From: an uncultured Ignavibacteria bacterium
GTDB lineage: Bacteria; Bacteroidota; Ignavibacteria; SZUA-365
Length of the DNA: 64,000 nt
Direction: 5' to 3'
Assembly (NCBI GenBank): GCA_913061095.1
Contig: CAJXVM010000008.1
Coordinates: forward strand, 1 to 64,000
The translations under genes and the position numbers were made by a program. Below the pieces are notes generated by a model. That model had not been told where the DNA came from and did no database searches. It was given only the letters and a program-made list of their open reading frames with translations. Position 1 is the stretch's first letter. Each line of letters opens with the position of its first letter. Shown piece after piece: positions 19,312 to 29,340 of this stretch.

Positions 19312-20415
19312 TCAGGAGAGGCCGATGGTTATGCTGTCGTAGAAGAATGTCCGGTCCCGCGCGAAAAGGGTGGCGGCCTGCCCGGTATCGTGAGTGAGGG
19401 ATTGCGGAAGAGAACGCGGCACGAAGAGCGAATAATAGAGAAGACGCACGCCCGGAGCGGCGGCGTCCGTGAGTGACTGCATCACGGTGTGCGCGTCTTC
19501 CTGCGGCATGTATTCAAAGATGTCTGAACAATACAGCGCCGTCGGGACGCTGTCGTGGCGCTCCATTCCCTCCCCCATCCGTCCGACGCGGCAGCGGAGA
19601 CGTCCGCAGCGCTCGCGTAGCAGATCGTACGTGTCGGAATGCATCCAGGGATGGGCATGGGAGGAATCACGGAAGTGTCCGGTGAGGATGTACTGCACGA
19701 AATAATTATCGGTGATGGGCACGGCCGTCAGTCCCCGCCGGGTGCGCAGGAGCAGTTCAGCGGCGATGTCCGTGCGATCGACCTGTGCGAAGAAAGCGCT
19801 GTCGCGTCCCAACCGTCCCAGCAGATACCGCGAGAAGAAGAGACGGAACATCGCCCTCCAGCGGGGATTGTCCCATCGCGTCCTGTAGACATCATTCTGT
19901 TCTTCGGTAGAGACGCTGGACAGCAGGGTGCGTACGGTTCCGGGCGTCTGCATGAGCGGCAGCATGAAGCGGCGAAAGATCGCGAAATACTGCTCGAACT
20001 TCCCGCAGTGGATGACGCCGCGACTGATATCAGCCCGGCGGCGATCCCAGTATTCCCGCGCGAAGGACGAGAGATGGCAGCGCAGCGCCGTATATGTCGA
20101 GAAGCGATCCGGAGAAGAAGAAACACCCAGGAAGCTCATGCACTCATGGTGGGACAGCTGCTCGATCGCCCGCACCTTGATTTCGAGCAGCGCGATCTGG
20201 GCCGCGCTCATGTCGACTGCTTCCACGGACGCGGCGTCACGAAGCAGCATGGCGAGGCAGTTGTCGCCGCCGGAGGCGATGGCGAGCACGCGGGAAGCGG
20301 AATCGATGCGCAATCCCTCGCAGACCGTCACCGGATCTTCCCAGCTCTGCGCGTAGCGGATGCGCTCCTCGAGCTGATCCGCGCCGGTCACACCGTAATC
20401 GGGTTCGCGCATCAT
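19312..20415 (-). CDS. btaA: BtaA-like (DUF3419) SAM:diacylglycerol 3-amino-3-carboxypropyl transferase
   Basis: A 367-aa protein. Start ATG 20415 overlaps the stop of the upstream gene (ATGA). The N-terminal signature RYAQSWEDP and the following SAM-binding stretch (RVLAIASGGDNCLAMLL..VEAVDMSAAQIALLEIK) match the DUF3419/BtaA family, which moves the 3-amino-3-carboxypropyl group of S-adenosylmethionine onto diacylglycerol to give diacylglyceryl-homoserine, the first step to betaine lipid. The partner methyltransferase BtaB is not in this window. It is the last gene of a seven-gene overlapping operon and directly follows a phosphatidylserine-decarboxylase-like gene. The family is clear; the acceptor lipid in this organism is inferred. 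Confidence 0.75.
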   Translation of the reverse strand: MMREPDYGVTGADQLEERIRYAQSWEDPVTVCEGLRIDSASRVLAIASGGDNCLAMLLRDAASVEAVDMSAAQIALLEIKVRAIEQLSHHECMSFLGVSSSPDRFSTYTALRCHLSSFAREYWDRRRADISRGVIHCGKFEQYFAIFRRFMLPLMQTPGTVRTLLSSVSTEEQNDVYRTRWDNPRWRAMFRLFFSRYLLGRLGRDSAFFAQVDRTDIAAELLLRTRRGLTAVPITDNYFVQYILTGHFRDSSHAHPWMHSDTYDLLRERCGRLRCRVGRMGEGMERHDSVPTALYCSDIFEYMPQEDAHTVMQSLTDAAAPGVRLLYYSLFVPRSLPQSLTHDTGQAATLFARDRTFFYDSITIGLS

Positions 20416-21419
20416 GCCGCATCCTCCGCGCCGGAATGGTCTATCCACTCGCCCATCTGCTCACCCGACATTCCGATCCGTTCTCTCATCCGCAGACCTG
20501 GAATGCCGATCCGATCGTCCGTCCGCACGTACGGAATTCCGATCCGTTCCCCCATGCGCACACGGGTTTCCATCCCACCGGCACTGTTCTCCACGAGATC
20601 CTCGTCGAAGAACACGGTGCCCGGAGAAAAGAGGAGCACGACCGTGGACGCGCCCAGTGCGAAATGCGCCTTGTGCGCGCCGGCCCGAACGCGCCGTCCC
20701 GGCGTGACATCCTGCCGGATGCTCGCGACGGCAAAGCTGCCGATTTCCGCCAGCAGCATCATCGCATAATGCTCGGAAGCAAACGATGTGAACGCGCGCA
20801 CGTTTTCGCGGTAAAACGGCATCCAGCTTTTCACGGCGTAGGGACCGCCGATGTAGCAGCGTCCCTCCAGCAGCCGGGGACTGGAGGGCACTCCCGCACA
20901 GGGATAATGCACATGGTGGTAATCAGACAGGCCCAGGCGCAGCACGGCCATGCTCCCACCCCGGTAGCGGTGCCAGGCCTCGTCGTTGCGCAGGAACTCG
21001 CGCAGACGGAACATGTGGCTCTTGATGCGGAAGGGCTCATCGTCCACCCGTGGATACACGAGGATCTTCCCGTCCACCGGCGCCACGCAGGCATCCTCAC
21101 GATCCGGCAGCGGACGCTGCGCGAGGTCGATCTCCCGCGTGAAGAAATCGGCGAAGCTGGAGTATTCTTCTGCGGGACGCAGGGCTTCGGACATGTCGAT
21201 CCCCATGCGCCTGATGAACGGCGCGATGCGCCGCCGGCTGCGCGGCAGGCTGTTCCACCACGCGTACAGCCGCGACGGCCAGAGGCGGCTCAGCACGAGA
21301 CGCGAGAACCAGCGGCCAGGCATGGCGTTGCAGGCCCAGTACAGGAAGCCCGAGGCGTAGATTTCCTCGCGCACACGCTCGCCGCTGCGGCGTTCGATAT
21401 AGACATGCTCCTGCGTCAC
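20412..21419 (-). CDS. psd: Phosphatidylserine-decarboxylase-like protein with repeated C-terminal tail
   Basis: A 335-aa pyruvoyl-type decarboxylase homologue. GTG 21419 overlaps the preceding stop (GTGA). Family landmarks: Asp116 (APVDGKIL), the His-rich stretch DYHHVHYP (~166-173), and the self-cleavage region F-A-L-G-A-S258-T-V. In the family the residue before the pyruvoyl-forming Ser is Gly; here it is Ala257. After the usual end (ETRVRMGERIG) come about 40 extra residues made of 11-residue repeats (MGERIGIPYVR, TDDRIGIPGLR, MRERIGMSGEQ, MGEWIDHSG). No phosphatidylserine synthase gene is nearby. It could make phosphatidylethanolamine or decarboxylate another amino-acid lipid, such as the product of the adjacent btaA. 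Confidence 0.75.
   Translation of the reverse strand: MTQEHVYIERRSGERVREEIYASGFLYWACNAMPGRWFSRLVLSRLWPSRLYAWWNSLPRSRRRIAPFIRRMGIDMSEALRPAEEYSSFADFFTREIDLAQRPLPDREDACVAPVDGKILVYPRVDDEPFRIKSHMFRLREFLRNDEAWHRYRGGSMAVLRLGLSDYHHVHYPCAGVPSSPRLLEGRCYIGGPYAVKSWMPFYRENVRAFTSFASEHYAMMLLAEIGSFAVASIRQDVTPGRRVRAGAHKAHFALGASTVVLLFSPGTVFFDEDLVENSAGGMETRVRMGERIGIPYVRTDDRIGIPGLRMRERIGMSGEQMGEWIDHSGAEDAA
20470..20568 (-). repeat. 33-base tandem repeat, three copies, inside psd 3' end
   Basis: Units at 20470-20502, 20503-20535 and 20536-20568, all beginning AT(T/G)CCGATCCG on the + strand. They are exactly in frame and encode the 11-residue repeats at the decarboxylase C-terminus. Confidence 0.85.
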
Positions 21420-22543
21420 AGTCTCATCTCGTAGAGCGTATATTCACGAAGTTCATCGGCTTCTTCTGCATCGAAAAGACCACGCACCCGGTTGCCGCAC
21501 CGCATGAGCGCGATGAGCACTTCATCCTTTCCCATCGCGAGCACACGCTGCAGCGTACGGTGCAGCATGGCGCGCGCACAGCCGGCGGCACTGCGGGCAT
21601 GCTGCGGCAGGACTCCGGCGAGGTGATAAATCACCCGGCCGGAATCGCGGCGATGCAGCAGGTAACGCAGCTTCGCCGCGGCATTCAGCTCTCCGCGTAA
21701 TGCCTGCACCGCGCGGGTCCGGTCAAGAAACGTCGCGGTAAAGCCCACCTCACCGTGATCCGGATGCGTGAGGAAGGAAACAAGTCCGGGCGCGAGTGCA
21801 TCGCGATTGCGCCGCAGCAGTGCGATGAAATCTTCCTCTGCAATGGATGTACAGCCGGGGAAATCCCGGAAGGCCGGCAGCAGAAGGTGGTAGAGGCGGC
21901 GGAAGTCCTGCTCCGGACGACGCGTATCGATATCGCGAAAACTGAAGCCGCGTGCGGTGAGACCCTCGTGTACGGGTAGCGTGAAATCGATCAGCGCACG
22001 CAGACGCAGTTCGCCGCGGTACAGCAGGCTCTCCCAGCGGTGTACGGCCGTGAAACCGGCCCGTTCGAACTGCCCGGGATACCAGGGCGCATTGCGCGGT
22101 TCGCTCACAAATGGAGTGCCGTCCGCGCCGCGCGTGATGAAGCGGTAGCTGTGCCAGATGTCGAAGTTCATCGGACCCCAGACGCGGCGCAGCCCTCGTG
22201 ACCGCAGCCAGCCGACAGCGGCATCTATGAGACGCATCGCCAGGAGGTCGTCATCGATGCATTCGTAGAATCCCACCGTGCCGACCGGTTCACCATTGCC
22301 ATCGCGCAGGTTGCGGTTCACGAACGCCGTGATGCGTCCGACCGCACGGCCCTTATCTCGCGCAATGAAATGATGATGGGCATTTCCCGGGACGGCGTAA
22401 AAAGGATAATCGGGCTGCAGCTGCCGTGCAATCATTGGATGCGGCGGCAGAATGAAATGCGGATCGCGGGCATTCCGCTGATGTCCGCAGTCGAGAAATT
22501 CATGCGCGAGACGCGTATCGAAATCGAAGCCGGTCAGTTCCAT
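21416..22543 (-). CDS. GNAT-like N-acyltransferase, YghO-like
   Basis: A 375-aa protein. ATG 22543 has GGAGAG upstream and overlaps the preceding gene by 10 bases. The first half is GNAT-like (HHFIARDKGRAVGRITAFVN.., GTVGFYECIDD, AAVGWLRSRGLRRVWGPMNFDIWHSYRF), and the layout with WGPMNF resembles the long YghO-type N-acyltransferases. From memory, the bacterial ceramide synthases are also GNAT-like proteins of about this length, so acylation of an amino lipid is a reasonable hypothesis given the neighbours. The acceptor is unknown. It lies between the PEP-utilising enzyme and the decarboxylase in the operon. Confidence 0.65.
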   Translation of the reverse strand: MELTGFDFDTRLAHEFLDCGHQRNARDPHFILPPHPMIARQLQPDYPFYAVPGNAHHHFIARDKGRAVGRITAFVNRNLRDGNGEPVGTVGFYECIDDDLLAMRLIDAAVGWLRSRGLRRVWGPMNFDIWHSYRFITRGADGTPFVSEPRNAPWYPGQFERAGFTAVHRWESLLYRGELRLRALIDFTLPVHEGLTARGFSFRDIDTRRPEQDFRRLYHLLLPAFRDFPGCTSIAEEDFIALLRRNRDALAPGLVSFLTHPDHGEVGFTATFLDRTRAVQALRGELNAAAKLRYLLHRRDSGRVIYHLAGVLPQHARSAAGCARAMLHRTLQRVLAMGKDEVLIALMRCGNRVRGLFDAEEADELREYTLYEMRL

Positions 22544-25233
22544 CGTATCTCTCCGGTGCTGCCGTTGATGGTGACCGACGCGGCTCCGTCGAGTAGTTGC
22601 ATGGCATCCTTCGCGGCGACAATGGTGGGGATGCCGAGCTCGCGTCCGATAATGGCCGTATGAGAAAGAACACTGCCCTGCTCGACGATCAGTCCGGCGG
22701 CGCTTATCATGAGGAACACCCATCCGGGATCCGTGCTGCGCGCCACGAGGATGCGTCCGCGCACATCTCCCGCCTGTCGCGGATCACGCACGATCATGCA
22801 GGGCGCGGTCACGGTGCCGGCGGAACAGCCCGTTCCACGCAGGATGTACGCATCCGGCGCGTCACCGGGCGCCGCAATGCCACTGGCCGGTGCGTGCGTC
22901 GCGGTTCCTGTTTCCGGTGTCAGCACCGGCCCGCTGTCACCGCGGCGCAGAAACCGTGACGGCAGTGTCATACGCACATCGGACTCCTGCCGCTGCCGCC
23001 TGCGAGCAACGATGCTGCGCGCTTCGGCGGGTGTGAGGCGCTTCTCGGCGGCGGCAAACACTTCTTCCATCTCAAGGAAAAATACATCTTCCGCATCGTT
23101 GATCACACGAGTGTTCGCTAGCAATTCGCCGTACCGCTGGAAGATCCGGCGCAGGAGTCCGTAGAGACGGCTGCGCGAGAAGCGCATGTTTTCCCGCGCC
23201 GCGACGGCCGCCCGAGCGCGGTTGAGCACGATGCGCGTGACGATGCGCGCAAATGGATTGCGAACAGCGCGGCGCAGTTCCGCTTCCGCAGCGGTGCGGG
23301 TGCGCTGTTCCTCCCGCTCCATGGCGGCGCAGGTTAGTCCACTGCGCACGTATCCGCGCAACATGCCGATGAGCGCCGTGGGCCGCTGACGATACGTGGA
23401 GGATTCCAACTTGAGCTCCTCGAATCCCCGGTCACCGAAGCGGGCAATATAATCGTCGAGAAAAGCGCTCAGGACGGCGCAGGATGGATCCCTGCGCGCC
23501 GTTTCAAGAATGGCTGCATCGCTGCCGCCGCGTCTGAACAGGCGCGAGAGAGCCGCGTCGGCACGAATGGATTCCGCCATGCGCACGAGGGCACGGACGG
23601 GCTGCACGCTTTCAATGCCCGGCTCCGCGCAGAGCAGCCGGTTGTGCAGTCCCTCATCGAAATGCTTCCGGCTGCAGCAGCGCTTCAGCAGATCGTACCA
23701 GGTCATGGCCGCAAAGTCGTTGTAGAGCGTCCGCGGCCAGAGAAGTGTCGCTTCCTCCGCGATCATGGCATACTGCCGGCGCAGCGCCGGAGCATCGGCG
23801 GATGCGATATCCATAGCAGACCAGCGTTCACAGGCGCGCGTAAATCCTTCGTGGAAGTGACGGGCATTCCTGCGAATGTGCAGGAGCCGCCAGGCACACT
23901 TGATCCCGGTCCCGACCCGATCCAGTATCGAGACCGGCACCGAAGGCAGGTCAATCGCATGCGCGATGCCGATCATCTGATCCCACGCGCGGCGGTTGCG
24001 TCTGATGCCCGGGAGCACCGAAAGCATGGCGTACCAGTTTCGCAGGTTGTAATAGACGCGACCGTGCTGATGTCCGAGCAGGGATGAAAGAGCGCCCTCG
24101 ATACGACGCAGCGGCGCTTCCCGCAGAAGGAATCCGCGCATGGCGCCACGGAAGGCCCGCGTGTAGGCTTCACGGATGACGCTGAAGGTGAGCGGGGATG
24201 TCATCCCGGGATAACTCTCGACGATATTCGCGTTGTCCCACACCTGCGGCGGGGCTTCATTCGTCCCATTGGCGGTGACGGGACGCGCCTGCAGGAGGAA
24301 CAGCATGCCGTCCGCCGCGCGCGCCCATTCCACATCCACCGGGAGGCCGAATTCGGACTCGAGCCGCATTCCCCAGTCTCGCAGCCGCAGTACTTCGCCG
24401 TCACGCAGCACCGCGACATCCTGCTGATGCTCCGGCACCGCCATGATTCGCAGGCCGTCCCTGCCAAATTCTTCGAAGCGCATCACCCGGGTTTTACGCG
24501 CGAGCGTCGCATCCACGACTGTGCCGCTGACCGGACAGCGGTAGCTGTCGGTTTCCACCAGATCCGAGACCACGCCCTCGCCCAGTCCATATCCCGCAAT
24601 GACGAAACATTCCTTCACCGCTGTCACCGGATCGCGCGTGAACAGCACGCCCGACGCCTCCGCGCGCAGCATGCGCTGCAATACGACGGCAATGCGGATG
24701 TCCAGCAGCGGCAGTCCTGCATGCAGGCGGTAGGTCAGTGCGCGCCGGGAAAACGCCGAGGCCCAGACACGCCGGAGGGCATGGGTAACCGACGCACGCG
24801 CGACGTTCAGGACCGTGTCCATCTGTCCCGCAAAGGAATGCCGCACGCCGTCCTCCCCCGCTACGGAGGAGCGCACCGATACGCTGCCGTTCTTTTCCAC
24901 CACCGTATCGAAGGCGCTGTAGATGTCTCGCATAATTTCGGCAGGAAGCGGGAGTGCCATGATGTGCGCCCGCAGCTCGGCGGCCGCGCGGGCGATTCCA
25001 TCGGGCTCATCAATGCGTAAACCCCGCAGCAGTGCCGTCATCTCCTCGCGGAATCCGGCAGCGCAGGTCGCAAACATGTCCGCGGAAAGAATGACAAAGG
25101 GCGGAACGGGAAATCCGAGCGCGCGCAGGCGAAGGAGGTTCCAGCCCTTTCCGCCGGCATCCTGCGCGGAGCAGCGCCGCTTCGTCCGGTGAATCAGCCG
25201 GTGGTGGTTCCGGGTGTGCAGTGCAGTATTCAT
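22534..25233 (-). CDS. PEP synthase / rifampin-phosphotransferase-like dikinase of unknown substrate
   Basis: An 899-aa three-part protein. Residues ~1-320 are the ATP-binding PPDK_N domain (DAGGKGWNLLRLRALGFPVPPFVIL, SVRSSVAGEDG..SFAGQMDTVLNV, VLFTRDPVTAV, FLLQARPVT). Residues ~330-800 form a helical middle that begins ESYPGMTSPLTFSVIREAYTRAF, as in rifampin phosphotransferases. Residues ~810-899 are the swivelling domain with the phospho-carrier His858 (GSVLSHTAIIGRELGIPTIV). Family members pass the beta-phosphate of ATP through the His to pyruvate or to a bound small molecule. The middle domain normally fixes the substrate, and here it is unassigned. Start ATG overlaps the UbiA gene stop (ATGA). 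Confidence 0.75.
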   Translation of the reverse strand: MNTALHTRNHHRLIHRTKRRCSAQDAGGKGWNLLRLRALGFPVPPFVILSADMFATCAAGFREEMTALLRGLRIDEPDGIARAAAELRAHIMALPLPAEIMRDIYSAFDTVVEKNGSVSVRSSVAGEDGVRHSFAGQMDTVLNVARASVTHALRRVWASAFSRRALTYRLHAGLPLLDIRIAVVLQRMLRAEASGVLFTRDPVTAVKECFVIAGYGLGEGVVSDLVETDSYRCPVSGTVVDATLARKTRVMRFEEFGRDGLRIMAVPEHQQDVAVLRDGEVLRLRDWGMRLESEFGLPVDVEWARAADGMLFLLQARPVTANGTNEAPPQVWDNANIVESYPGMTSPLTFSVIREAYTRAFRGAMRGFLLREAPLRRIEGALSSLLGHQHGRVYYNLRNWYAMLSVLPGIRRNRRAWDQMIGIAHAIDLPSVPVSILDRVGTGIKCAWRLLHIRRNARHFHEGFTRACERWSAMDIASADAPALRRQYAMIAEEATLLWPRTLYNDFAAMTWYDLLKRCCSRKHFDEGLHNRLLCAEPGIESVQPVRALVRMAESIRADAALSRLFRRGGSDAAILETARRDPSCAVLSAFLDDYIARFGDRGFEELKLESSTYRQRPTALIGMLRGYVRSGLTCAAMEREEQRTRTAAEAELRRAVRNPFARIVTRIVLNRARAAVAARENMRFSRSRLYGLLRRIFQRYGELLANTRVINDAEDVFFLEMEEVFAAAEKRLTPAEARSIVARRRQRQESDVRMTLPSRFLRRGDSGPVLTPETGTATHAPASGIAAPGDAPDAYILRGTGCSAGTVTAPCMIVRDPRQAGDVRGRILVARSTDPGWVFLMISAAGLIVEQGSVLSHTAIIGRELGIPTIVAAKDAMQLLDGAASVTINGSTGEIRWN

Positions 25234-26162
25234 GACGCGCTCCAGGAAGCGAAAATGACGGATATCATCAGCATGACAGCGTACGCCTCGCCATACACGC
25301 GCAAACGGGCATGCGCGGGCACGGGCCGCAGCAGAAATCTCGCGTAGGCGAGGGTAAGCAGTATCCAGGCAGCGAGCAGGGGCAGCAGCGCGATGGCGGA
25401 CCAGGAGCCGGCGACGACAAAAGACAACGCCGACGCGGCTGCGACGCTCTGCGCCGCGAAGGCGAGCGCGACCGCACCGTGGCGTCCCAGCAGACGCGAA
25501 TACGTGACGTATGCGTTTTCCTCCTCCGGTGCGCGGATCTTGCGCGCGATCTCCCAGGCGAACATCGGCATCCAGAGCATCAGCGCACCGCGAAGGAGCA
25601 TGTCCCAGTCGAGCGCGGCCAGGGGGAGATCCGCTGCTGCCGCCGTGACAATCATGCAGTGCAGAACGATCAGCGGGATGACGGGATTGTGCGTGGCGAG
25701 ATTGAGAAAGAGATTCTCGCGCAGCAGCGTGGGTGCGAAGAAATAGCGGTACATCAGAACGGTGTATCCCAGCAGGGGGATGGCCGAGAGCAGTGTGACG
25801 GGAAGGAGCAGATGCAGGGCGACAAACGCCGCGGCGACCGCTGTCATGCTGATCCGGATGTCGGACTCCCGGACGCGTCCCGACGGCAGCGGCCGCTCCC
25901 GGAAAAGCGCCCGATCAATTTCCACGTCCTTCAATTCATCCATCAGACGCAGCAGGAGCAGCAGGAGGAATACCGCCGCGCTGCTGACAGCCAGGGGCAG
26001 GAGGAGTGCAGGGTGCGGCTCTGCCAGCGAAGACTGCGTAAACAGTACGACTGCCGCACCGATGATGAGCGCGAGCGGAAGACGTTGCGCGAGCGGATAC
26101 ATTTCCTGCAGGTAGCACCACATACGCTGCGTGTAGCCATGTGCGGAGTATGCGTGTATCAT
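25230..26162 (-). CDS. UbiA-family membrane transferase
   Basis: A 310-aa protein with about eight or nine transmembrane helices. The first Asp motif of the UbiA superfamily is present as D75-x3-D79-x3-D83 (MDELKDVEIDRALFRERPLPSGRV). The second Asp motif, usually D-x-x-G-D before a G-R stretch, is replaced by KIRAPEEENAYVTYSRLLGRHGA, so diphosphate/Mg binding may differ. UbiA enzymes transfer prenyl groups to aromatic or lipid acceptors (for example archaeal ether lipid or quinone synthesis). Start overlaps the lipid-kinase stop (ATGA). The acceptor is unknown, but the neighbours point to a membrane lipid. Confidence 0.7.
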   Translation of the reverse strand: MIHAYSAHGYTQRMWCYLQEMYPLAQRLPLALIIGAAVVLFTQSSLAEPHPALLLPLAVSSAAVFLLLLLLRLMDELKDVEIDRALFRERPLPSGRVRESDIRISMTAVAAAFVALHLLLPVTLLSAIPLLGYTVLMYRYFFAPTLLRENLFLNLATHNPVIPLIVLHCMIVTAAAADLPLAALDWDMLLRGALMLWMPMFAWEIARKIRAPEEENAYVTYSRLLGRHGAVALAFAAQSVAAASALSFVVAGSWSAIALLPLLAAWILLTLAYARFLLRPVPAHARLRVYGEAYAVMLMISVIFASWSAS

Positions 26163-27100
26163 GATATTCTCCTTGAGACCGAACGATCCGATGGGATGGA
26201 AGATGAAACGATGCGCAGCGCCCCGGGAAGGACAAGCACATGGAAGGTGTCGGTGGGATCGGAAAGCTCCCCGTCACCGAGATACGGCACGGGGACATCG
26301 GTCTGGACGCGGAGCGAATGATCCTGCCAGCAGCGGATGTCCGTACAGTCGATATGCCGCTCGCGCAGCACTTCGGTGACGAGGCGGAGGAGCCCGAGGC
26401 GTCCGTTGCGACCACTGACCATGCATACGTCGAAGAGTCCGTCGTCATTACGCGCGGAAGGCGCGATGGGGAAATACCCGCCGAGCAGGCGCTGGTTGCT
26501 GATCATGAGCAGTGGTGAAGACACTTCTTCGCTCCACCCTTCCGCCGCGATCTGCATCCGGCTGCAGTGGCTGGACTGACGCAGCAGCGTTCGCACGGCG
26601 GCCAGCGGGTATAACGAAGAGCCGAATGCGCCGCGCCGGGCAGTGCTTCCACCCCGTGTCCGCATGTGCGCGGCCATCCCCGCAACACTGGCGCACAGCC
26701 CCAGTCCCCCGTCGGTCGCATAGCGCCAGCCGTTGACGTCGATCAGGTCAACGCGTTTCCGTCCGCCGCGCAGGATGTCGCGGCAGACATCCTGCAAACC
26801 TCGTGCGCAGCCATTCTGCTGCGCGAAATCATTCGCCGATCCCGCCGGCAGCACGGCCAGCGCTGCACTGCCGTCCACCATGCCGTTGATCACCGCGTTC
26901 AGCGTTCCGTCACCGCCCGCGGCGAGAATGACATCGGCACCGTCGCGCACGGCGTCGCGCACGTGTTCCGTCGCTTCCTCCCCGGAACGGGGCATATGCG
27001 CATTCACGAGAGCGCCGTTCAGCTGCACACGCAGCTGGGGAAGCAGGCGGTCGGCGATTCCTCTGCCGGCATTGGGATTCAGGATGGCAACGACATTCAT
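26159..27100 (-). CDS. Diacylglycerol-kinase-family lipid kinase (YegS/BmrU-like)
   Basis: A 313-aa protein starting at ATG 27100, preceded by GAGGAGG, 10 bases after the upstream stop. The frame is open further upstream only as a shadow of the SDR gene. Motifs: N-P-N-A-G-R-G (8-14), ILAAGGDGTLNAVINGM (nucleotide-binding GGDGT at 62-66) and LPAGSANDFA (84-93), then the C-terminal beta-sandwich (DVNGWRYATDGGLGLCASVAG). Family members phosphorylate diacylglycerol, sphingoid bases or related lipids using ATP. Overlaps the UbiA-like gene by 4 bases. The lipid substrate is not determinable from sequence. Confidence 0.8.
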   Translation of the reverse strand: MNVVAILNPNAGRGIADRLLPQLRVQLNGALVNAHMPRSGEEATEHVRDAVRDGADVILAAGGDGTLNAVINGMVDGSAALAVLPAGSANDFAQQNGCARGLQDVCRDILRGGRKRVDLIDVNGWRYATDGGLGLCASVAGMAAHMRTRGGSTARRGAFGSSLYPLAAVRTLLRQSSHCSRMQIAAEGWSEEVSSPLLMISNQRLLGGYFPIAPSARNDDGLFDVCMVSGRNGRLGLLRLVTEVLRERHIDCTDIRCWQDHSLRVQTDVPVPYLGDGELSDPTDTFHVLVLPGALRIVSSSIPSDRSVSRRIS

Positions 27101-27110
27101 GACATCCTCC

Positions 27111-28235
27111 TCACGCCGCGAGCGCGAAGCGGCGGCCCCAGGCGGAGTCGACGGCGAAGCGCAGAATGGTGGAGATATACTGTGTAAACGGACGCAGAGC
27201 GATACCGCTGCCGCGAAGCAGATCCCGCGCGCCGGTATCATCGAAGGTCCGGTTGATGGCGAGGTACGGCGCAAACTGCGCGAGTGTCGCGACGAGCGCC
27301 CGTTCACCCGCACCGGTGATATCCGTGAAGTTAAATTTCCGGGGAGAGACGAATTCCACCCTGGCCGTGTCGACGCTTCTGCCTGAACGCAGTGCGCCAC
27401 GCACGATATCCCCCACGGTGCTGGAAGCTGCGCCGCCCGCAGTGAGATGCAGGGTGCGCCCGATACTGGCACCGTCATCGAACAGCAGGTGGCAGATGGC
27501 GCGGCTGACGTAATCCACGGGAACAACGTCCAGCGGCGTGTGCTCCTCACATGGGAGGAAGCGCACCAGGTTGCGCACAATGAGACGGAGCGGCGCATAG
27601 AGCGCCTTGAATGCGTTGGTTCGTCCGCTGTGCTCATCACCGACGATGATGCTGGGTCGCAGGATACTCGCGGGCAGATCCCGCATGGCCGCGCGCACGT
27701 GCTGTTCAGCTTCGAATTTGCTCTGCTCATAGGTGTTGGAAAAGCGCGGTGTGATATCCTCATCTTCATATATCACGCCGTCACGGCTTCCGCAGACATA
27801 CGCGGTGCTCACGTAGGTGAAGCGCTTCAGACCTCCACGCTCCATCACATCACGCGCGATCCGCAACAGCTGTCTCGTGCCATCCACGTTGACCCGCCGC
27901 GCCTCGTCGAGCTGAAGATCAAAGCGCACATCGGATGCCGCATGTACGATATGGGTGACAGCACTGCGAAGCCGCTGCCGGATATCCGGGGTGAGACCAC
28001 AGTCCTGCCTGGTGATATCACCACAGAGTACGCGAACACGCTCCCAGGAGGATGCGGGCAGACGTGCTCCCTCGAGCAGCTCAACCGCCCTGCGCAGTCG
28101 CGCCCGGGCAGTATCAGGGCTGCTTCCACGAACCAGGGCCCAGACCTTCAGGTCTGTGTCCCCCGCCAGCAGTCTGCGGAGAACATCGGCCCCGACGAGT
28201 CCAGTTCCTCCGGTAAGCAATACGTTCTGTGCCAT
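27111..28235 (-). CDS. Fatty-acyl-reductase/thioester-reductase-like SDR
   Basis: A 374-aa extended SDR, first gene of the operon. ATG 28235 follows AGGAGA. The Rossmann motif is T-G-G-T-G-L-V-G (8-15) and the active-site pair is Y169-x3-K173 (TYEQSKFEAE), with upstream Ser-Thr in VSTAYVCG. The spacing and the GDIT, VHAASDVRFD and RPSIIVGDEHSG stretches resemble the NAD_binding_4 (male-sterility / thioester-reductase) group, which reduces acyl thioesters to aldehydes or alcohols. It could supply an alkyl chain or reduce a lipid keto group. The precise substrate is unknown. Confidence 0.7.
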   Translation of the reverse strand: MAQNVLLTGGTGLVGADVLRRLLAGDTDLKVWALVRGSSPDTARARLRRAVELLEGARLPASSWERVRVLCGDITRQDCGLTPDIRQRLRSAVTHIVHAASDVRFDLQLDEARRVNVDGTRQLLRIARDVMERGGLKRFTYVSTAYVCGSRDGVIYEDEDITPRFSNTYEQSKFEAEQHVRAAMRDLPASILRPSIIVGDEHSGRTNAFKALYAPLRLIVRNLVRFLPCEEHTPLDVVPVDYVSRAICHLLFDDGASIGRTLHLTAGGAASSTVGDIVRGALRSGRSVDTARVEFVSPRKFNFTDITGAGERALVATLAQFAPYLAINRTFDDTGARDLLRGSGIALRPFTQYISTILRFAVDSAWGRRFALAA

Positions 28236-28395: not shown

Positions 28396-29127
28396 TTAAT
28401 CGAGCAGCGTCACAGACCCGTCATGCAGATTGTAGTAGCCGCCGGCGAGCATGATTTTCCCTTCCTCTTCCAGCTGGCGTACAATCGCGCTGCGGCTGCG
28501 GATATCTTCGATCGTCAGTTCAACGTTGTTCTTGATGACTCCCGTCAGGTACTCCTTGTTCGCGGCATCGCGCTCACCTTCGGTTTTTTCGATAGCGGGC
28601 TCGATCTGTGCGAGGAGATGGTCAACGTTCTCACTGCCGACGTCGAGCTGATCCACGGCCGACTTCACGGCACCGCAGGATTCATGTCCCAGCACCATCA
28701 CCAGCTTCGAGCCGGCAACGCCCACGGCGTACTCGATACTTCCGAGGAGATCCTCATCCTCGATGTTGCCCGCGACACGGGCGACGAACACATCACCGAC
28801 GCCCTGGTCGAACACCATTTCGACGGGCACGCGCGAATCGACGCAGGAGAGAATGATGGCCTTCGGGTACTGTCCGTCGGTCGTGGCCGCCACCTGCGCG
28901 GGGAGATCGCGTGCGGTCAGGTCATTCTGCATGTACCGCTGGTTCCCCGCCATCAGATCATCGAGCACCGCCTGAGGGGTCATGGCTCCCTGATCGGTTG
29001 CGGTCATGACTGTGGAGGTCATTTCCTCTGACTGCTCTTGCTCACTGGTTTCCTGCGCCGGCTGATTGCAGGCGGCAAGGAGGATAATAGCCAGCAGCGG
29101 CACCGCTGCGAGAAGAGTTTTATTCAT
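28396..29127 (-). CDS. Beta-class carbonic anhydrase, lipoprotein
   Basis: A 243-aa protein. ATG 29127 is preferred, with GAGGTGG upstream and an immediate lipoprotein signal (lipobox LLAAC, Cys20); in-frame codons further upstream lack a ribosome site. After a Glu/Ser-rich linker comes a beta-carbonic anhydrase domain with zinc ligands Cys95, His148 and Cys151 and the Asp97-Arg99 dyad (CVDSRVP, GHESCGA). It interconverts CO2 and bicarbonate, here presumably at the periplasmic face or in the outer membrane, where it could help CO2 uptake or pH control. Neighbours do not reveal a pathway. Confidence 0.9.
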   Translation of the reverse strand: MNKTLLAAVPLLAIILLAACNQPAQETSEQEQSEEMTSTVMTATDQGAMTPQAVLDDLMAGNQRYMQNDLTARDLPAQVAATTDGQYPKAIILSCVDSRVPVEMVFDQGVGDVFVARVAGNIEDEDLLGSIEYAVGVAGSKLVMVLGHESCGAVKSAVDQLDVGSENVDHLLAQIEPAIEKTEGERDAANKEYLTGVIKNNVELTIEDIRSRSAIVRQLEEEGKIMLAGGYYNLHDGSVTLLD

Positions 29128-29340
29128 AGTCCACCTCGTAACATTGTTATACGTTTGAAGCGGCGATGTGCGGCTTGTTGCGCACAAAGCGGCGCTCCTG
29201 ATTAGACAAAACTGCAACACAGAATTATGGAGCAAATAATAACATGGATTCTGGATAAAAAGTTGCCGCTGAGATGCGAAAACCTTGATGTGACATGCAG
29301 ATGGATTTCACCGACTCTGCCAGCAGGCGGTGGCTCCGGT

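Follow-up and report, generated by a model that had tools for sequence, protein, structure and literature searches.

A seven-gene operon in an Ignavibacteria genome and the modular polar-lipid pathway to which it may belong

Anatomy of the operon

The DNA considered here is a stretch of 64,000 nucleotides from an uncultured Ignavibacteria bacterium (Bacteroidota, lineage SZUA-365; assembly GCA_913061095.1, contig CAJXVM010000008.1, positions 1 to 64,000 of the forward strand), which as a whole is referred to as the window. Between positions 19312 and 28235 it carries a cassette of seven minus-strand genes, the products of which may together synthesize a polar membrane lipid. The host genome is complete (4.6 Mb). 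In gene order the cassette consists of:

27111-28235, minus strand: short-chain dehydrogenase/reductase (SDR), a fatty-acyl (thioester) reductase of the NAD_binding_4 family; 374 aa, first gene
26159-27100, minus strand: diacylglycerol-kinase/YegS-type lipid kinase (DGK); 313 aa
25230-26162, minus strand: UbiA-superfamily transferase; 310 aa, overlapping the DGK gene by 4 bases
22534-25233, minus strand: phosphoenolpyruvate (PEP)-synthase-like phosphotransferase (PEPS) with rifampin-phosphotransferase/PigC architecture; 899 aa, overlapping the UbiA gene by 4 bases
21416-22543, minus strand: tandem GNAT acyltransferase-like protein; 375 aa, overlapping the PEPS gene by 10 bases
20412-21419, minus strand: pyruvoyl decarboxylase of the phosphatidylserine decarboxylase (PSD) family; 335 aa, GTG start, overlapping the GNAT gene by 4 bases
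19312-20415, minus strand: BtaA-like (DUF3419) 3-amino-3-carboxypropyl transferase; 367 aa, overlapping the PSD gene by 4 bases

Order, overlaps and gap were re-derived from the sequence of the window and agree with the original prediction of seven overlapping minus-strand genes in coordinates, gene order, the five overlaps and the single 10-base gap. This gap (27101-27110) lies between SDR and DGK after GTGAGGAGGATGTC and contains GAGGAGG; the remaining junctions are, in gene order, overlaps of 4, 4, 10, 4, and 4 bases. The G+C content of the cluster is 63% versus 55-56% in the flanks. Pfam and NCBIfam models back six of the seven family assignments, in agreement with the families first proposed, and the seventh, GNAT, is borne out by an AlphaFold model. 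Catalytic motifs were found in all: GGxGxxG/YxxxK, GGDGT, DxxxDxxxD, the His of SHTAI, GAST, and the S-adenosylmethionine (SAM) motif of BtaA.

Recurrence and distribution of the cluster

With the PEPS protein as query, 80 loci were obtained from 84,980 bacterial and archaeal genomes and were annotated by mapping the seven proteins and then with profiles derived from the cluster. Loci of Nocardia and Mycobacteroides without UbiA, which the same query retrieved, were handled as a different cluster. Slot counts given below refer to the 63 loci with UbiA and PEPS (61 once two same-contig pairs, L006/L095 and L002/L098, are removed).

About 60 loci, spread over some 12 phyla, were found to carry the compact cluster. 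The full order SDR-DGK-UbiA-PEPS-GNAT-PSD-BtaA is kept in L004 and L006, that from DGK onward in L008 and L009, and L034 has the order of the operon with FcrA, a reductase discussed below, replacing SDR and with a desaturase inserted; the hosts of these five loci belong to Ignavibacteria, Bacteroidota, Zixibacteria, Calditrichia, and "Deltaproteobacteria". Other variants occur in Acidobacteria, Planctomycetota, Desulfobacterales, Spirochaetes, and others. Since in other classes and phyla the same order and the short gaps or overlaps are found at roughly 30-46% identity, the arrangement is more than chance. No other neighbours are as constant as UbiA and PEPS, which adjoin each other in this order 45 times: the core always consists of these two, usually plus the tandem GNAT, and the remaining slots are filled interchangeably.

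In an independent search with a UbiA alignment, carriers made up 5 of 197 genomes in the class of the bacterium and 10 of 395 in its phylum, and UbiA was missing from three of five sampled genomes of its own genus. Every locus fetched for these carriers was the cluster, of which the same-genus genome G101 shows part only (contig of 5.4 kb). The gene set is thus rare and patchy, yet not scattered: the gene order that the original prediction proposed to look for elsewhere does recur, and the scattering that would have spoken against it was not observed in relatives. Directly upstream of the cassette, on the same strand, the window contains a gene for a beta-carbonic-anhydrase-like lipoprotein (28396-29235). 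Its orthologue in G101 (78%) adjoins neither the lipid cluster nor other window genes, and therefore the position of the cluster is not conserved within the genus. Genes for a MacB/FtsX-type permease and an ABC ATPase, possibly for transport of the product, are found in or beside the cluster in L003, L004, L008, L009, L040, and L071.

BtaA and PSD as head-group enzymes

The BtaA of the operon matches DUF3419 over the full length (1.7e-62; positions 7-382 of 385), and its SAM motif VLAIASGGDN is conserved in an alignment of 17 sequences; no solved structural relative of it was found. The cluster proteins form a subfamily distinct from the BtaB-linked BtaA of the phylum, with far higher scores against the cluster profile. 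As control, 20 DUF3419 loci of the same phylum without the UbiA cluster were inspected, 18 of which belong to the ordinary BtaA subfamily. A BtaB-like methyltransferase is adjacent in 16 of these 18 and PSD in none, whereas beside the cluster BtaA a BtaB-like methyltransferase was found in 0 of 28 loci (there was one spurious high-GC reading frame) and PSD in 14 of 28; these neighbour counts share ancestry and are descriptive. The head-group slot is occupied by BtaA in 28 loci and by CarS/CDP-alcohol enzymes in 15, both together in none, and PSD is found with either route.

The PSD of the operon (PS_Dcarbxylase, 5e-38) has the GAST self-cleavage motif, and its catalytic D/H/S residues are conserved in 21 relatives. 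Its C-terminus (20412-20560) carries the imperfect repeats RIGIPYVRTDD-RIGIPGLRMRE-RIGMSGEQMG, an extension absent from the relatives. PSD normally acts after phosphatidylserine synthase (PSS), the supplier of the alpha-amino-acid head. No PSS was found in the cluster at any of the BtaA loci, and by analogy BtaA itself would there provide the alpha-amino-acid (homoserine) head in place of PSS. Such a partnership of BtaA and PSD, overlooked in the original prediction, is likely. The earlier statement that neither PSS nor BtaB is present holds for the operon but not for the genome, where a second, canonical PSD adjoins a CDP-alcohol transferase on another contig (a PSS-PSD pair). Exactly two PSDs were also found in each of the 12 other BtaA+PSD genomes. 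It follows that the housekeeping PSD is not the one in the operon, and a role of the latter in ordinary phosphatidylethanolamine synthesis is correspondingly weakened.

The 20 control loci also include L133 and L136, which lie outside the ordinary subfamily. A second partner of BtaA was found in L133 (940-7370), in a genome of the bacterium's own class, where genes for DGK, a PEMT-BtaA fusion, a tandem GNAT, a pyridoxal-phosphate (PLP)-dependent decarboxylase of the ornithine/diaminopimelate/arginine type, and a class II aldolase follow each other on one strand. The decarboxylase, unrelated to PSD, stands at the place of PSD, and the locus has the look of a sister pathway with the PLP decarboxylase instead of PSD and a subsequent methylation of the amine. 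In L136 (1687-5661) a tandem-GNAT-like gene, a ferritin-like protein resembling aldehyde deformylating oxygenase, an acyl-ACP-reductase-like gene, and BtaA lie in a row.

It could be argued that separate polar-lipid enzymes are simply bundled: PSD would turn phosphatidylserine into ordinary phosphatidylethanolamine, a homoserine lipid would come from BtaA, and the remaining enzymes would form a third product. Indeed, the PSD retains all family residues, a PSS is present in the genome, and half of the BtaA clusters are without PSD. This explanation is nevertheless unlikely: a PSS-linked PSD is already available in the genome, as are two PSDs in the 12 others; PSD adjoins BtaA in the clusters and never the BtaB-linked BtaA; BtaA and the CDP route are mutually exclusive, with PSD accompanying either; and in L133 an unrelated amino-acid decarboxylase takes the place of PSD.

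Exchangeable reductases and kinases

The SDR matches Pfam NAD_binding_4 (1.3e-55) and the NCBIfam models for thioester reductase (9e-47) and PRK07201 (1e-42), and its translation contains TGGTGLVG (GGxGxxG) and YEQSK (YxxxK). The reductase slot holds an SDR in 7 loci, a protein resembling HMG-CoA reductase (HMGR) in 17, and a TamH-like fusion in 12, never two of them together. The HMGR-like proteins match class I HMGR but have Glu at the position of HMGR Ser684 (IEANLSGDKK, VESNLSGDKK, and similar). Because this change is the diagnostic residue of FcrA, an HMGR homologue that yields fatty alcohols rather than mevalonate (PMC11948995), they are FcrA-type; on the basis of residue and literature together, a role of these genes in mevalonate or isoprenoid formation was rejected. 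The TamH-like fusion consists of a class III aminotransferase and an acyl-ACP reductase, the architecture of PtTamH, which produces fatty amines (PMC9594044), and it matches the PigE and acyl-ACP reductase models.

The lipid kinase of the operon (DAGK_cat, 8e-25; YegS_C, 5e-20) is replaced in other loci by a phytol/dolichol-kinase-like protein (PhyK), with the motifs RKxxH, DAxAAxxG, KSxEGS, and GxDNxxVP read by eye, or, in Bacteroidota, by an APH domain fused to FcrA. Loci with SDR or FcrA carry a lipid kinase from one of the two unrelated families or the FcrA-APH fusion. Within the 13-member clade of the UbiA tree that includes the window, all four combinations SDR+DGK, SDR+PhyK, FcrA+DGK, and FcrA+PhyK occur, and across the whole tree there are at least five reductase changes and five kinase changes, which, owing to shared ancestry, are not independent. 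Since unrelated proteins of one reaction type interchange, the swaps suggest that the two steps are the formation of a fatty alcohol and the phosphorylation of a lipid alcohol.

Six loci of Bacteroidota (L043, L052, L055, L064, L072, and L075) combine UbiA and PEPS with CarS, a CDP-alcohol transferase, and PEMT, plus either the FcrA-APH fusion or the TamH-like fusion with a second PEPS gene. These loci probably make an ether or amino phospholipid that has gone unrecognised in Flavobacteriales/Chitinophagales.

UbiA, PEPS, and GNAT proteins

The UbiA homologue (Pfam UbiA, 3e-8) has an intact first aspartate motif (DELKDVEID), D75, D79, and D83 being invariant in an alignment of 30 sequences. 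The second aspartate motif is gone; instead the same alignment has ExxRKIRxPExE...TYS with E204, R207, K208, and E215 invariant. The nearest folds to its structural model (pLDDT 93.8) are digeranylgeranylglyceryl phosphate (DGGGP) synthase (6m31, Z 19.5) and ApUbiA (4od5, Z 18.9); the membrane phosphoribosyltransferase Rv3806c (8j8j) scores Z 17.1.

The latter similarity opens the possibility that the UbiA homologue is phosphoribosyltransferase-like, joining phosphoribosyl pyrophosphate to an alkyl phosphate made by reductase and kinase, with BtaA and PSD decorating the sugar. The kinase product would then be used directly and an allylic donor would be unnecessary, and the basic R207 and K208 in motif 2 are reminiscent of the basic cluster of Rv3806c, in which basic residues stand where the second Mg site would be (PMC10994848). 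Higher scores, however, go to DGGGP synthase and ApUbiA, and the CarS and CDP-alcohol transferases of the sister clusters indicate a glycerol-phosphate-like backbone, so that a phosphoribosyl transfer appears improbable.

PEPS contains PPDK_N (5e-72) and a PEP-utilizers mobile domain (1e-21; the swivelling His domain), and it matches the NCBIfam models PigC (5e-88) and RPH (1e-88), its closest solved chains being 5hv2, 5fbs, and 5hv1. The catalytic-His motif GSxLSHxAI is present in 62 of 64 cluster copies. Among the Pfam domains there is no PEP/pyruvate-binding barrel, and the mobile domain is C-terminal (residues 826-894 of 899); a true PEP synthase was rejected because the PEP-binding domain is missing. 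PEPS homologues also occur in other surroundings. Nocardia (L017-L080), Mycobacteroides chelonae (L024), and Mycobacterium sp. (L026) have a conserved actinobacterial cluster without UbiA, comprising two PEPS genes, a TamH-like fusion, AMP ligase, P450, alpha-oxoamine synthase, NTP_transf_5, DGK, and an ABC/FtsX transporter, and on plasmid pF1D18A of Streptomyces clavuligerus (L116) a PEPS homologue (32% identity) adjoins an ICMT-family methyltransferase and an AfsA hotdog protein.

The resemblance of PEPS to PigC/RedH and of the sister-cluster fusion to TamH/PigE could be taken to mean that a secreted specialised metabolite (a fatty amine, or a compound like prodiginine or tambjamine) is made instead of a membrane lipid, in line with the MacB/FtsX-type ABC transporter genes that follow in several loci and with the patchy distribution. 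We regard this as distinctly improbable, since BtaA, PSD, CarS, CDP-alcohol transferase, and PEMT are head-group enzymes of membrane lipids and the operon, unlike the tambjamine and prodiginine systems, has no pyrrole-forming genes.

The GNAT protein has no Pfam or NCBIfam family match. Its AlphaFold model (pLDDT 94.5) consists of two GNAT folds and gives full-length matches (E 5e-11) to the tandem GNATs 2wpw, 7q3a, and MshD.

An archaeal-type isoprenoid ether lipid, with UbiA acting as DGGGP synthase on geranylgeranyl chains, is very improbable in spite of the nearest UbiA fold, the CDP-archaeol-synthase-like CarS of sister clusters, and the archaeal lipid genes known in bacteria of the Fibrobacterota-Chlorobiota-Bacteroidota (FCB) group (PMC7852524), for the HMGR-like proteins are FcrA-type and the other reductases of fatty-acyl type, the second prenyltransferase motif is lost, and neither a polyprenyl synthase nor a geranylgeranylglyceryl phosphate synthase was seen among recurrent neighbours. 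Two of these points, the reductase slot being always of fatty-acyl type and the lost motif, also disfavour the prenyl decoration that was originally suggested. With the DGGGP synthase/CarS pathway the operon shares the UbiA fold and the first aspartate motif, but BtaA replaces the CDP route and the chains would be fatty rather than prenyl. The Ebo cluster (UbiA-297; PMC9235831) was also considered and rejected, its gene set being different.

Proposed pathway

We put the chances at about even that the operon belongs to a modular pathway, widespread but so far undescribed, which makes a polar membrane lipid and proceeds as follows. The SDR would convert a fatty-acyl thioester to the aldehyde or alcohol (step 1); the DGK-type kinase and/or the PEPS dikinase would turn the fatty alcohol into an alkyl (di)phosphate (step 2); the UbiA homologue would move the alkyl chain onto a glycerol (phosphate) backbone, forming an ether (step 3); and the tandem GNAT would attach an acyl group (step 4). 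BtaA would then transfer the 3-amino-3-carboxypropyl group of SAM to a free hydroxyl, yielding a homoserine-ether head (step 5), which the PSD paralogue would decarboxylate to a 3-aminopropyl group (step 6), the result being a phosphorus-free counterpart of phosphatidylethanolamine. Each reaction is inferred; what the sequences show is the anatomy and co-inheritance of the operon, the family identities, the swapping within slots, the absence of BtaB, and the redundancy of PSD. Steps 1, 5, and 6 are the best supported, and the order and exact substrates of steps 2-4 the weakest part.

In plant phytol salvage, phytol kinase and phytyl-phosphate kinase are followed by a UbiA enzyme. By analogy, the kinase and PEPS may activate the fatty alcohol and UbiA form the ether; that the nearest UbiA folds include an archaeal ether-lipid synthase is consistent with the ether step. 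The product is most likely an alkyl-ether lipid whose head is homoserine, or aminopropyl where the cluster has PSD, and the pathway brings known modules together in a new combination. More tentatively, the product could represent a new class, in which an alkyl-ether lipid carries a 3-aminopropyl head through an ether bond; its chains would be activated along a new route of fatty alcohol, lipid kinase, PEPS dikinase, and non-prenyl UbiA transferase, and its head would be built by a phosphorus-free BtaA-PSD mimic of PSS-PSD. The open-licence literature that was searched describes neither the gene combination nor an aminopropyl-ether lipid, and no pathway with this set was found there, as the original prediction had it. 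What holds of the suggestion made there, an ether- or amino-linked lipid with prenyl or acyl decoration, is that the genes are inherited together as one operon for a polar lipid not yet described, which probably contains an ether link.

Several observations weigh against this proposal. UbiA enzymes normally require an allylic diphosphate, and a saturated alkyl diphosphate ionises poorly; the problem would not arise with a 2-enoyl chain or in a reaction of phosphoribosyl type. TamH-type clusters would yield an amine, not an alcohol, and the SDR, having a single domain, may not go beyond the aldehyde. A kinase and BtaA do not obviously fit one linear scheme, and the kinase could act on diradylglycerol. 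The phytol-kinase-like proteins, matching no Pfam or NCBIfam model, bear their label by motif only. L003 has SDR, UbiA, PEPS, and GNAT without kinase, PSD, or BtaA, and to this must be added the BtaA clusters without PSD and the non-independence of the swap counts.

Known systems share parts of the proposed scheme. The BtaA/BtaB pathway of the betaine lipid diacylglyceryltrimethylhomoserine has in common with it a full-length BtaA with SAM motif and the expected homoserine ether head; the operon differs in lacking BtaB, in its distinct BtaA subfamily, in six extra genes, and in having PSD (in L133 the ornithine/diaminopimelate decarboxylase) in place of the N-methyltransferase. In the bacterial fatty-alcohol ether-lipid routes (myxobacterial ElbD; FcrA/FarA with PlsC-like or AGPS, PMC11948995) a fatty-acyl reductase likewise feeds an ether lipid. 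The operon, however, has no ElbD, PlsC-like, or AGPS-type gene, and activation and transfer apparently proceed via kinase, PEPS, and UbiA. ElbD is a multidomain FarA-FadD-ACP-PlsC protein, whereas the SDR is a single domain of 374 aa, with no FadD or PlsC gene in the operon.

Biological significance

If the proposal is correct, an aminophospholipid would be replaced in many bacterial phyla by a membrane lipid that has escaped recognition and needs no phosphate, and ether bonds would be formed by a route that is neither archaeal nor plasmalogen-type. Candidate genes would be at hand for orphan ether and amino lipids of environmental lipidomes, and a function could be given to many genes annotated as "phosphoenolpyruvate synthase", "UbiA", "HMG-CoA reductase", or "DUF3419". 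The cluster would also lend itself to a clean test of how non-homologous enzymes replace one another inside a single pathway.

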